Assembly (NCBI RefSeq): GCF_000315055.1
Contig: NZ_BAER01000041.1
Span: 1-64,000 of the forward strand
Direction: 5' to 3'
Origin: Paraglaciecola polaris LMG 21857
GTDB taxonomy: Bacteria; Pseudomonadota; Gammaproteobacteria; Enterobacterales; Alteromonadaceae
Length of the DNA: 64,000 nt
Positions 24,536-28,230 of this stretch are shown piece after piece; position 1 is the stretch's first letter; every line of letters begins with the position of its first letter. The translations under genes were made by a program, and so were the position numbers. The notes beneath the pieces were generated by a model that saw only the letters and a list, made by a program, of their open reading frames with translations, searched no databases and had not been told where the DNA came from.

Positions 24536-25714
24536 TTATAAAACAACACGGTGAACTGCGCTAGACACTCGTTGGTGCTCAACCATTCCGCCAAGGGTTA
24601 CAAAGTGTTTATCTGCCCCCTTACCAATACGCAAAAGCCCTCGGTGATCCATCGTGCCAGTGCCAACATCCGTGACCTGCCATTTCGAACGTTCAAAATC
24701 ATAGCGCCACATTTCGCTACTTGGCGTGGCTGGTTCACCGTTATAACCGACACCGTCGTAGTTATAAGGGTTATCTGAGCCTCCCAAAAAGACCGCGGAA
24801 TGGCTGTCGTTATCACCAACGGCTGCCATACGGTAACGCGCAACAGATGTAGGGTGCTCGATCGTGCGCCAATCAATTTTATTCCTATCAAGCATATCAA
24901 TCATTCCATGATAACAAGCCGGCTCAGCAGAAAAAGTACGACGTTTATCTGGCTGAGCATCGACCTTCACACCGTCACAGAGCAATATATTTTCGCCAAC
25001 AATAGCGCCAGCATGACCAAATACCGGTTGCCCTAAAAAAGGCGAACCTTGTTGCCAACTGTCGGTTTGTACATCGTAAATTTGCACCAAATTGATATTA
25101 CCGTCGTTATGCCATCCGCTAATTAAATAGATATACCGCTGGCGATAAACCAGTGCAACGGCATCATCCACCGGCACGGGTGTAGCGGCAAGAGGATAAT
25201 ACGCATCAGCGATAACGTCATAACGGAAATTGTCCGGACTCGACACCTCATTGTGCGCTTCATCGACCGTATAACCCCCAAATAGATAGGCCATATCGTT
25301 GACCCCGACTGCGACACTGGCTAACCGTCCTGACTGCGGTAATGTGGAAGGCACGGCGTTTTTTGCTTGCCAGGCAATTCCATTCACACTTGTGTTATCA
25401 GCTTTATCAATGTTTAACGCCCAGGCTTTATTGTGTACCGCCTTGTCGGTTTTCGTTGCCCCTAATCCCATAAAAGACAATAAATAACGCCCTTGGGAAG
25501 TCACCACTTTTGCCACCGCATTATTCGTTACCGGCTCAGGTAAATCAGGGTAACCGACTAAACTCGGTGATAAAGCACTGGCGGTGTTTATGTTGCCGTC
25601 AGAAGACCTGTGGTGAACAGAGATTTGAGGGTTTACGGCACAACCTAATACACTGAATCCAAAAGCACAGATGAACATCAAGCGTGTATTATTTCCTCGC
25701 TCAAATGACCCCAT
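24536..25714 (-). CDS. kelch-repeat lipoprotein
   Basis: A 392-residue protein with an N-terminal lipoprotein signal (lipobox VLGC, Cys25) and repeated kelch-like blades (DMAYLFGGY, RYIYLISGWHND, HSAVFLGGSDN), predicting a six-bladed beta-propeller. NanM/YjhT sialate mutarotase is one known kelch family in gammaproteobacteria, but I see no specific evidence for that activity. Its start overlaps the argE stop (TGATG), which suggests translation coupled to an arginine gene. The function is unknown. Confidence 0.75.
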   Translation of the reverse strand: MGSFERGNNTRLMFICAFGFSVLGCAVNPQISVHHRSSDGNINTASALSPSLVGYPDLPEPVTNNAVAKVVTSQGRYLLSFMGLGATKTDKAVHNKAWALNIDKADNTSVNGIAWQAKNAVPSTLPQSGRLASVAVGVNDMAYLFGGYTVDEAHNEVSSPDNFRYDVIADAYYPLAATPVPVDDAVALVYRQRYIYLISGWHNDGNINLVQIYDVQTDSWQQGSPFLGQPVFGHAGAIVGENILLCDGVKVDAQPDKRRTFSAEPACYHGMIDMLDRNKIDWRTIEHPTSVARYRMAAVGDNDSHSAVFLGGSDNPYNYDGVGYNGEPATPSSEMWRYDFERSKWQVTDVGTGTMDHRGLLRIGKGADKHFVTLGGMVEHQRVSSAVHRVVL

Positions 25715-26859
25715 CAGAAGCAGACTTGTTTGATGAAATTGCGCAGCAAAGTCACTGTTGGGTCAACATAGTGCAGGGAAATAAACTCATCTGGTTGATG
25801 AGCTTGCTCAATACTACCCGGTCCTAATACTATGGTGTCACAACCTAATTGGTTGATAAACGGCGCCTCAGTAGCGTAATTTGCGCTAACGGGCTCAAAT
25901 CCTGTCAATTTCTGCGCTAATTCTAAGATCCCTTGCTCATTGCGACACCCAAACGCCGGGGCCGTTTCATACATAGCTTCACGAGTAATTCGCTGGGGAT
26001 ATTTTTGCATCAACGGGGCCAAAGCCTCATCAATCATGGCAATCGCTTCTATATCACTTAGCGAAGGAATAGCACGCAAATCAAAATTTAGCTGGCAGTG
26101 TCCACAGATACGATTTTCACCGTCCCCACCATGAATATGACCAAGGTTCATCGTGACTTCCGGCACACTAAAAGCATCATCGCGATATTTCTCCGATAGC
26201 TGCTGTTTCAATGCGATCAACTTGCCAATGGCTTGATACATGATTTCAATCGCATTGACGCCCTTCGCAGGATCGCTGGAATGCCCGGCTTTTCCTTCAA
26301 TATTCAAACTGTGGCCCATGTGCCCCTTGTGTTTGTATATAGGTTTTAGTTCGGTGGGCTCGCCAATAATCGCCATGTCCGGTTTAATTAATTGCTGCTC
26401 GACGAAAAAACGCGCCCCAGCCATGGATGTTTCTTCGTCAGCTGTGGCCAAAATATAAAGCGGTTTCTTTAAATTTTTAAGAGGAATGTCTTTTATTGCC
26501 TCTAAAATAAAGGCAAAAAAGCCTTTCATGTCACAGGTACCTAAACCATACAGCTTTCCGTCAGCCTGCTGGGCGTTAAATGGATCAAATTGCCACTTGT
26601 TGTCATCAAATGGCACAGTGTCAGAATGTCCAGATAATAGTAGTCCGCCCTCTCCGCTACCAATTTTAGCCAGCATATTGTACTTATTTCGAGCGTTTGG
26701 TACTTGTTGAATACTTATGTCGAAGTTGTAATCACTAAACCATGCTGCAAGCAAATCGATAATAGTACGGTTAGATTGGTCTAAATCTGCGCTAAAAGCG
26801 CTGATAGACGGTGTTTTGATGATATGTGCATAACGTTCTAAAAAAGACAAAGATGGCAT
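25714..26859 (-). CDS. argE: acetylornithine deacetylase
   Basis: M20-family metallopeptidase that hydrolyses N-acetylornithine to ornithine and acetate, the linear arginine route. The 381-residue protein has GHSDTVPFDD (zinc ligand His and Asp), LGTCDMKGFFAFILEA, ADEETSMAGARF (Glu base and ligand) and QAHQPDEFIS near the end. The ATG at 26857-26859 is chosen (AAGGT 6-7 nt upstream) over a TTG two codons earlier. It is divergent from argC and controlled by two ARG-box-like sites. The kelch lipoprotein follows with overlapping stop and start codons. Confidence 0.95.
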   Translation of the reverse strand: MPSLSFLERYAHIIKTPSISAFSADLDQSNRTIIDLLAAWFSDYNFDISIQQVPNARNKYNMLAKIGSGEGGLLLSGHSDTVPFDDNKWQFDPFNAQQADGKLYGLGTCDMKGFFAFILEAIKDIPLKNLKKPLYILATADEETSMAGARFFVEQQLIKPDMAIIGEPTELKPIYKHKGHMGHSLNIEGKAGHSSDPAKGVNAIEIMYQAIGKLIALKQQLSEKYRDDAFSVPEVTMNLGHIHGGDGENRICGHCQLNFDLRAIPSLSDIEAIAMIDEALAPLMQKYPQRITREAMYETAPAFGCRNEQGILELAQKLTGFEPVSANYATEAPFINQLGCDTIVLGPGSIEQAHQPDEFISLHYVDPTVTLLRNFIKQVCF

Positions 26860-26868
26860 AACCAAACC

Positions 26869-26907
26869 TTTAAATAATTATTCATTTTATTTGCATAAAT
26901 ATATAAC
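26869..26907 (-). promoter_or_regulatory. tandem ARG boxes (ArgR operator) at argE
   Basis: Box 1 (core 26871-26884) reads TGAATAATTATTTA on the minus strand, 13 of 14 to the classic TGAATAATTATTCA. Box 2 (core 26892-26905, TGCATAAATATATA on the plus strand) is weaker. Their centres are exactly 21 bp apart, the standard spacing of paired 18-bp ARG boxes separated by 3 bp. They overlap the -10 element and the region down to the argE ribosome binding site, as expected for ArgR repression. Confidence 0.8.
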
Positions 26908-26928
26908 ACATGGCATACTTATCGCCAA
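26900..26928 (-). promoter_or_regulatory. argE promoter
   Basis: On the minus strand TTGGCG (26923-26928) and TATATA (26900-26905) are separated by 17 nt. The -10 lies inside the second ARG box. This predicts a start about 35 nt before the argE ATG. Confidence 0.55.
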
Positions 26929-27008: not shown

Positions 27009-27074
27009 ATGAATTCTATTACATCACAGTTTGATTCCCTGCCTAGCTTCGCCAGCATGTTGTATCGACGATAA
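27009..27074 (+). CDS. candidate arginine leader peptide before argC
   Basis: A 21-codon ORF, MNSITSQ...ASMLYRR, ends with two consecutive CGA arginine codons (27066-27071) and TAA (27072-27074). An internal ATG at 27057 would give the five-residue MLYRR. The Arg codons form the 5' arm of the hairpin TCGAC-GATAA-GTCGA (27065-27079). The stop is 23 nt before a strong terminator that precedes argC. This is the layout of an attenuation leader peptide. Against it, no convincing Shine-Dalgarno sequence precedes either ATG, and short ORFs occur by chance. The role is inference. Confidence 0.4.
   Translation: MNSITSQFDSLPSFASMLYRR
27010..27023 (+). promoter_or_regulatory. weak ARG-box-like site at argC
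   Basis: TGAAT-TCTA-TTACA matches 8 of 10 conserved ARG-box positions (TGAAT-N4-ATTCA). No clear partner lies 21 bp to either side, so it is much less certain than the argE pair. It overlaps the start of the candidate leader ORF. Confidence 0.3.
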
Positions 27075-27097
27075 GTCGAGGTCTGATGCGTTTAGCT

Positions 27098-27145
27098 CAC
27101 CCAAGACCTTTAGTATTTGCTAAAGGTCTTGGGTGTTTTTTTATT
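27098..27145 (+). terminator. strong intrinsic terminator in the argC leader
   Basis: A perfect 16-bp stem (27098-27113 with 27120-27135; the arm begins CACCCAAG and ends CCTTTAG), a 6-nt loop and then seven T residues. It lies 57 nt before the argC ATG, with no conventional gene on this strand upstream. It therefore acts either as a transcription attenuator for argCBFGHA or as the 3' end of a small RNA. A competing pairing exists: AGGTCT (27079-27084) with AGACCT (27104-27109) inside the left arm. Confidence 0.9.
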
Positions 27146-27201: not shown

Positions 27202-28230
27202 ATGATCAAAACTTGTATTGTCGGCGCCAGTGGATATACCGGTGCCGAATTAGCCTCTTTAGTGCAACGCCACCCACGCTTTGAATTAAATGCCTTATAT
27301 GTGTCAGCACAAAGTCAAGATGCCGGCAAAAAACTCGGTGATGTGCACGGTTATTTGTTCGCGCAAGTGAATTTACCGCTGACGCCTTTGAATGATGACG
27401 CTTTGCATTCATTGGCGAATGAAATGGATGTCATTTTTCTTGCCACTCCCCATGAAGCTAGCCACGACTGGATGCCCATTTTGTCTTCAGGCAAAGCCGT
27501 GGTGTTCGACTTATCAGGCGCATTTAGGCTAAAAGACCAGCAGGTATTCGAACAGTACTACGGTTTTGCCCATCAACAACCCGCTTGCCTAGAAAAAGCG
27601 GTTTATGGTTTGGCGGATTGGTTTGCAAAAGACATTAAGACTGCCGACATCGTTGCCGTGCCGGGTTGCTACCCCACGGCTTCACTAAGCGCATTAAAGC
27701 CATTGCATGATGCAGGTTTTATAGCAGATGGCCATTTACCGATTATCAACGCTGTATCTGGTGTGTCTGGCGCAGGTCGTAAAGCGGCCATGGCCAGTAG
27801 CTACTGCGAAGTCAGTCTGCAAGCTTATGGTGTATTAGGTCATCGCCATCAACCTGAAATCAGTGCTTATTTGGGTCGCGACGTTATTTTCACTCCACAC
27901 TTAGGTAATTTCAAACGTGGTATTTTGGCAACCATTACCGTTAAAGTAAACGCAGATGTCAGCCCAGAAGCCATTGAGAATGCCTTCAATCAGGCCTATA
28001 AGAACCATGCTATTGTGAGACTTCGCAACACTTGGCCTAAGCTGGACGATGTCGTTGGTACGCCACATTGCGATTTATTCTGGAAATTAGATACGCACAA
28101 AGGCTACCTAGTCATTACTAGCGCTATCGACAACCTGCTCAAAGGTGCAGCATCTCAAGCCTTACAATGCGCCAACTTGCGATTTGGTTACGCATCACAG
28201 CTAGGTTTAGTGCATGAGGTATCGGCATGA
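27202..28230 (+). CDS. argC: N-acetyl-gamma-glutamyl-phosphate reductase
   Basis: Third step of arginine synthesis, NADPH-dependent reduction of N-acetylglutamyl phosphate. The 342 residues include the Rossmann motif VGASGYTGAELASL (7-20), the active-site Cys in VPGCYPTAS and the HRHQPEIS segment. It is the first gene of argCBFGHA and overlaps argB by 4 nt (ATGA). Upstream lie the leader terminator and the ArgR-type region shared with argE. Confidence 0.96.
   Translation: MIKTCIVGASGYTGAELASLVQRHPRFELNALYVSAQSQDAGKKLGDVHGYLFAQVNLPLTPLNDDALHSLANEMDVIFLATPHEASHDWMPILSSGKAVVFDLSGAFRLKDQQVFEQYYGFAHQQPACLEKAVYGLADWFAKDIKTADIVAVPGCYPTASLSALKPLHDAGFIADGHLPIINAVSGVSGAGRKAAMASSYCEVSLQAYGVLGHRHQPEISAYLGRDVIFTPHLGNFKRGILATITVKVNADVSPEAIENAFNQAYKNHAIVRLRNTWPKLDDVVGTPHCDLFWKLDTHKGYLVITSAIDNLLKGAASQALQCANLRFGYASQLGLVHEVSA

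Follow-up and report, generated by a model that had tools for sequence, protein, structure and literature searches.

The argCBFGHA operon of Paraglaciecola polaris LMG 21857 raises the question of whether arginine biosynthesis can be controlled through the translation of a leader peptide. Ribosome-mediated attenuators are well known for the his, trp, leu, ilv, thr and phe operons, whereas ArgR is the textbook control of arginine biosynthesis; to our knowledge, no leader-peptide attenuator of arginine biosynthesis is generally recognized. A search of the open-access literature returned no arginine-biosynthesis leader attenuator among the matches listed, an absence that is not proof. The DNA analyzed here (the window, a stretch of 64,000 nt) carries argE and, divergently from it, argC, argB, argF, argG, argH and argA, each scoring above the NCBIfam cut-off for its name. 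A first-pass annotation of the window had proposed that an arginine-codon leader peptide and a terminator ahead of argCBFGHA constitute an attenuator (Table 1). The comparative data support that proposal, with an Arg-ending ORF conserved far beyond the genus, and the argCBFGHA leader is very likely to be an arginine-responsive leader-peptide attenuator.

The 21-codon ORF was found where it had been annotated, with CGA CGA directly before its stop; that is, the leader ORF contains tandem codons for the product of the operon, as ribosome-mediated amino-acid attenuators do. An intrinsic terminator lies between this ORF and the first gene, likewise as in an attenuator. The terminator was annotated correctly as to position and its seven Ts, and its stem has 17 pairs by scan instead of the 16 bp first given. 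The region from 27009 to 27145 folds at −45.9 kcal/mol, well under the −27.43 averaged by shuffled versions (z −4.68), mostly through the terminator. A pattern scan for CGACGATAA followed by 35–65 nt and six Ts gave a single match in the 5.24-Mb genome, at the argC leader, a count that alone proves little because a reversed control pattern also gives one match. No Rfam family scored above threshold in the leader, where four matches within or beside it all fell far below their gathering scores; elsewhere in the window, Rfam Alpha_RBS (alpha operon ribosome binding site) matches positions 2840–2944 of the minus strand with 86.7 bits.

Table 1. Features of the argE–argC region in the window, with the basis for each
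Feature	Position	Strand	Basis and remarks
argE, divergent neighbor	25714–26859	−	NCBIfam NF003474 acetylornithine deacetylase, 582 bits (cut-off 460)
ARG-box-like palindrome ATTCATTTTATTTGCAT, candidate ArgR operator	26880–26896		Pattern scan; putative ArgR binding
Candidate promoter TTGCAT-N17-CATACT	26891–26919	+	Like sequence by eye in related loci
Leader ORF MNSITSQFDSLPSFASMLYRR	27009–27074	+	ATG 27009, 21 codons, TAA 27072–27074; sequence reading and ORF survey
TCCCTGCC element within leader ORF	27036–27043	+	CCCTG invariant in 47 aligned leaders, selected with a motif containing CCCTG; L010 and L025 deviate
Leader hairpin (1:2), closed by GCU/AGC	27046–27096	+	Predicted fold; z −1.0 in the window
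Apical hairpin TCGAC-GATAA-GTCGA over Arg codons and stop	27065–27079	+	Retained through most of the genus
Regulatory codons CGA CGA (Arg-Arg)	27066–27071	+	End of leader ORF, directly before TAA
Antiterminator candidate GAGGTCT (27078–27084) : AGACCTT (27104–27110)	27078–27110	+	Putative stalled-state fold; clade-restricted
Intrinsic terminator	27098–27142	+	Stem 27098–27135 with 17 pairs (8 G-C), loop of 4; seven Ts 27136–27142
argC, first gene of argCBFGHA (to 33911)	27202–28230	+	TIGR01850, 372.7 bits (cut-off 233.6)

Conservation of the Arg-ending ORF in relatives had been set as a test of the proposal, and the ORF passed it. ArgC was found in 22/22 genomes of the genus, 140/147 of the family and 242/295 of the order. 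The argC upstream regions were compiled for a subset of these genomes; those from the genus and order scans, 117 fetched stretches, the named loci and the window numbered 224, or 209 after identical regions were removed. An ATG-started ORF with in-frame CGA-CGA was present in 119 of these 209 regions, which represent 15 sampled families of the order and, since only identical regions were removed, are not independent events; dinucleotide shuffles gave a mean of 0.8 and a maximum of 3 in 30 rounds, and the reverse strand gave 1. The count includes L193 (MRRYSFTI), probably a chance occurrence, and excludes L082 and L147, which start with TTG or GTG, and L196, which is similar but doubtful. Moreover, of the 143 CGACGA copies, 140 share an open frame with an ATG. 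The leader ORF occurs in six of the 15 families (f1 106/155, f25 7/11, f12 2/2, f16 2/2, f10 1/2, f6 1/1), leaving 49 f1 regions without it, and was not found in the regions sampled from f2 (1 region), f3 (3), f8 (4), f9 (4), f11 (8), f18 (2), f20 (6), f21 (7) and f26 (1). Outside the order, 40 regions sampled from 177 genomes with an ArgC match yielded one doubtful case, an Arg-rich ORF near argC. Such conservation of a tiny Arg-codon ORF suggests that ribosome stalling there reports arginine shortage.

Closer to the window, 50 of 57 named Alteromonadaceae-type loci, identified by the ArgC scan, have the ATG-started ORF with in-frame CGA-CGA before argC. Among the seven that do not, a stop precedes the Arg codons in L004, a single CGA precedes the stop in L044, and five HTCC2999-type Glaciecola loci (L024, L030, L031, L037 and L039) have no ATG-started Arg-Arg ORF. 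By eye, those five retain the hairpin, a CTCTCCCT motif and a terminator (upstream of 3001), and they possibly represent decay or an altered mechanism. Within the genus, 18/22 genomes carry the ATG-started CGA CGA leader ORF; L078 has CGA CGG, L082 starts with TTG, and L004 and L084 lack this ORF, the whole element being absent from L084, which has an unrelated CGT CGT ORF. In one further genus member, L075, the terminator has decayed.

The encoded peptides vary in where the arginines fall. Paraglaciecola leader peptides end in RR (SLPSFASMLYRR and stop), those of Aliiglaciecola and others have RR nearly at the end (SLPCYA..RR), and in Alteromonas the pair mostly lies 8–9 codons before the stop (SPLAGYTLHSARR...). 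The shortest leaders, MLLFRRR, MSTTIRR and MHTLKLRR, each followed directly by a stop, keep little besides Arg codons, which favors control by tRNA charging over a nascent-peptide sensor. One leader, from a metagenome-assembled Aestuariibacter (L033, 2700–3003), resembles L021 (Alteromonas marina type) in its 5′ half and L029 (Marisediminitalea type) in its 3′ half; the halves join at the conserved CTCTCCCCTGGCTGGCTAC, through recombination or chimeric assembly.

With any Arg codon allowed, 133 Arg-Arg ORFs were counted, as compared to 29.6 in shuffled sequence, and the excess of Arg-Arg ORFs is therefore essentially all CGA-CGA. CGA accounts for 83 of the 732 Arg codons in the 33 window ORFs of at least 250 codons, which contain no CGA-CGA pair, and for 4 of 96 in the arg operon. 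A study that used a his-leader assay in Salmonella reports strong ribosome stalling at Arg pairs containing CGA, AGA or AGG, with slower decoding of CGA than of CGU and CGC (PMC4046918). The Salmonella speF leader, as described in part of another report, senses arginine with two consecutive Arg codons, and frequent codons work as well as rare ones (PMC6386406), suggesting that CGA is helpful, but not in principle required.

Translation of the leader calls for a ribosome-binding site, and the first-pass annotation was right that the window's ORF has no clear Shine-Dalgarno sequence. AGGA/GAGG/GGAG-type sites precede the in-frame ATG in 43/119 leaders overall. They are unevenly distributed, with 37 in the 47 named leaders outside the genus, none in the 18 genus leaders and 6 in the remaining 54, so the weakness is eased for the first group and persists for the other two. 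Translation of the Alteromonas-type leaders thus appears well supported; because such sites are scarce beyond them, the argument for translation of the other leaders is made by the reading frame alone.

The apical hairpin TCGAC-GATAA-GTCGA described in the first-pass annotation is present, is retained across most of the genus, and sits inside a larger predicted leader hairpin (1:2), which has the Arg codons close to its apex and its 3′ end just before the terminator. When 46 distinct leaders were folded, the GCU/AGC closing pairs formed in 40, with a mean z of −1.65 and 21/46 below −2, and an alignment of 47 leaders shows no variation in the corresponding basal-stem GCT and AGC. These 47 were chosen from 63, leaving out L007, L044, the five HTCC2999-type loci and nine near-duplicates; eight loci without the search motif never entered the set of 63. 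Across the 47, 77.8% of the cells in the basal helix are paired, as compared to 75.7% when shuffled, with two pairs changed on both sides (268/500 shuffles). A three-helix form was scored on Alteromonas-type leaders, a set of 20 rows of nearly equal length, 19 of them distinct, one of which supplied the structure; 84.5% of cells were paired, as compared to 80.9% in shuffles, none of 500 reaching as high. Its covariation score was 0.203, as compared to 0.156 shuffled (2/500 shuffles), and its five pairs changed on both sides were not unusual (179/500). RNAalifold, applied to the same rows, kept just five basal pairs, without covariation. Together, the folds and alignments give moderate support to a hairpin that overlaps the regulatory codons as in an attenuator. 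For the 2:3 step detailed in the first-pass annotation, support does not extend past the closest relatives.

The terminator is common downstream of the leader. A strict terminator is found in the 140 nt past the Arg codons in 94/119 leader-bearing regions, 70 of the 94 starting 28–55 nt past them, as compared to 47/90 leader-less regions and 4/119 on the reverse strand. The terminator was rejected as a marker of the leader, because leader-less regions also have one. Three leaders (L053, L219 and L220) have a terminator-like hairpin, followed by Ts, whose own 5′ arm consists of the Arg codons, so a stalled ribosome would cover the stem; the T run has eight residues in L053 and at most four in the other two, of which L220 does not pass the strict test. 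Terminator calls overlap or abut the Arg codons in 17 leaders, and this arrangement is claimed for those three only. In all, 25/119 leader-bearing regions have no terminator by the strict test, for example L163, L164, L168, L178, L184 and five of seven f25 leaders (L195, L198–L201). By eye, L198 and L199 have GCCCCT, AGGGGC and a second CCCC run between leader and argC, which would allow two mutually exclusive hairpins with no T run, perhaps serving Rho-dependent or translational control. On balance, the survey leans toward the CGA-CGA sensor being an old, order-wide control of argC around Alteromonadaceae with at least three outputs: a hairpin plus a separate terminator; codons within the terminator stem, where the stalled ribosome would be the antiterminator; and a terminator-less form using another route.

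In the proposed mechanism, RNA polymerase would start at a promoter that is probably also under ArgR and transcribe a leader in which the ORF for a short peptide closes with CGA CGA. With plentiful Arg-tRNA, the ribosome would pass the CGA codons, the leader hairpin would close, and the terminator would halt transcription before argC. With scarce Arg-tRNA, the ribosome would stall at the two slow CGA codons and keep the leader hairpin open, leading to readthrough. In the window's clade, the freed segment 2 may then form 7 bp with the terminator arm, and in L053, L219 and L220 the ribosome itself could block the terminator-like stem that holds the Arg codons. The evidence, all of it from sequence, shows the ORF, the Arg codons, the hairpin and the terminator, and that they are conserved; translation, stalling and readthrough would follow under the model, whose weakest step is the disabling of the terminator by a stalled ribosome.

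The first-pass annotation had proposed that AGGTCT (27079–27084) pairs with AGACCT (27104–27109) in the stalled state. The window sequence confirms that the two can pair, and the same pairing is found in 7/22 genus genomes (the window, L001, L002, L003, L066, L067 and L069). It is absent from the other 15 and was rejected as a general mechanism. Pairing energies of the 7-bp helix were below those of shuffles (z −1.31 in the window, −2.98 in L001 and −2.50 in L002). In a stalled-state model of 64 leaders, pairing of the terminator arm was slightly higher on average (0.45, as compared to 0.39 when released) and clearly higher in 13/64. Cross-pairing was scored in sets of 46 and 41 of the 64 modelled leaders, with terminator limits entered by hand and some corrected by eye. 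Over the 46 leaders, segment 2 showed no enrichment of pairing with the terminator (mean z 0.07). Pairing of the upstream part of the ORF with the terminator was rejected as not above shuffles, the mean z of 0.53 over 41 leaders being in the opposite direction. Alteromonas folds had pointed to a further pairing, between segment 2 and the terminator loop, and this was also rejected: it is conserved in sequence, but has no pairs changed on both sides and does not exceed shuffles overall. These searches against shuffles found no family-wide antiterminator in either leader set and clear ribosome sites are few, so we infer the way in which stalling blocks the terminator; the specific alternative pairing first proposed would hold at most for the window's clade.

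The candidate promoter, from which transcription would start near 26926, was not picked up by a consensus promoter scan; the ARG-box-like palindrome overlaps it. The ARG-box-like pattern occurs in 95/209 argC upstream regions, as compared to 3.15 in mononucleotide shuffles, and lies 5′ of the leader ATG in 56/119 leaders. Such palindromes are widespread before argC, including in regions without an Arg leader. ArgR was found in the P. polaris genome, in 24/24 f1 genomes and in 35 of the 40 genomes checked overall. Given that ArgR is also present, the argC operon is probably under dual control by ArgR and attenuation. By eye, an ARG-box-like sequence (about TGAATAnAATTGCA) stands directly before argC in L163, L164, L173, L178, L180 and L184, all but L173 without a strict terminator, suggesting that ArgR might block elongation there.

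Three alternative explanations bear on this conclusion. If a plain terminator merely trimmed transcription and arginine control were exerted by ArgR alone, one would expect the ArgR gene, the ARG-box-like site over the candidate promoter, and the terminators of leader-less regions, all of which are found, but the in-frame CGA-CGA ORFs of six families would be left unexplained, making this account very unlikely. It has also to be asked whether the leader peptide, together with arginine or ornithine in the exit tunnel, arrests the ribosome as TnaC does; SpeFL is a further example of such a nascent-chain sensor. SLPxxA or SPLAGY does precede the Arg pair in many Alteromonadaceae leaders. However, other families and genera keep just RR or RRR in unrelated, often very short peptides (MLLFRRR, MSTTIRR and MFCHLICNRRHTPA), and the leader peptides have no match in Pfam or NCBIfam and thus no leader-peptide protein family. 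Moreover, the SLPSF codons TCC CTG CCT AGC TTC are invariant in genus leaders (which were selected with a motif covering the first part), third positions included, suggesting a constraint on the RNA. Arrest by the nascent chain is accordingly improbable.

In the third alternative, the leader is a structured RNA, such as a riboswitch or a protein site, and the ORF is incidental. The HTCC2999-type Glaciecola loci, with hairpin and terminator and no Arg-Arg ORF, are consistent with this idea, as are the invariant basal-stem GCT and AGC and the genus leaders without a ribosome site. The in-frame constraint on CGACGA copies argues against it, as do the Shine-Dalgarno-like sites of the named leaders outside the genus, the families that have Arg-Arg ORFs without that RNA motif, and the absence from the leader of an Rfam match above threshold. 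We consider an incidental ORF highly improbable. Attenuation through arginine-dependent stalling in the leader ORF is therefore preferred.

As a proposed attenuator, the argC leader shares with those of the his, trp, leu, ilv, thr and phe operons the tandem product codons in a leader ORF, the hairpin over the codons, and the intrinsic terminator before the first gene. It differs in concerning arginine, in using CGA nearly always, and in having no antiterminator conserved family-wide; some of its relatives depart further, with codons inside a terminator-like stem or with no terminator by the strict test. A parallel in codon use is the orf34 leader of Salmonella speF, a short leader ORF with two consecutive Arg codons that sense arginine. 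That leader differs in controlling a polyamine gene and in involving Rho-dependent termination, RNase G and a conserved DUF2618 peptide, and the authors, in the portion of the report consulted, describe no rho-independent terminator (PMC6386406). Four of the argC leader peptides gave no Pfam match, DUF2618 included, at E values up to 10. The candidate attenuator uORFC-8-2 (cysS), likewise found comparatively, combines a terminator with a leader ORF carrying two tandem codons, and differs in concerning cysteine, a tRNA synthetase gene and Rhodobacterales, according to the sections available (PMC8632094). The Pseudomonas carAB leader also encodes a peptide, with attenuation proposed at an arginine/pyrimidine gene, but that attenuation is ascribed to pyrimidines, and the parts of the paper seen make no mention of tandem Arg codons (PMC4997734). 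A Shewanella study describes attenuators of leuA, ilvG and other genes; its accessible text does not mention argC or argA, and names speA only as possibly post-transcriptionally regulated (PMC2659441). For the arginine operons of Actinobacteria, part of a comparative study reports no conserved RNA structure, and arginine T-boxes in other species (PMC1262725).

If true, a widespread arginine attenuator would add one more amino acid to the list of those controlled by attenuation and would suggest dual control by ArgR and attenuation. It would also provide a natural test of why CGA serves as the sensing codon. Varied outputs behind one sensor would make these leaders a good case for the study of attenuator evolution, including what may be its simplest form, a ribosome sitting on the terminator.
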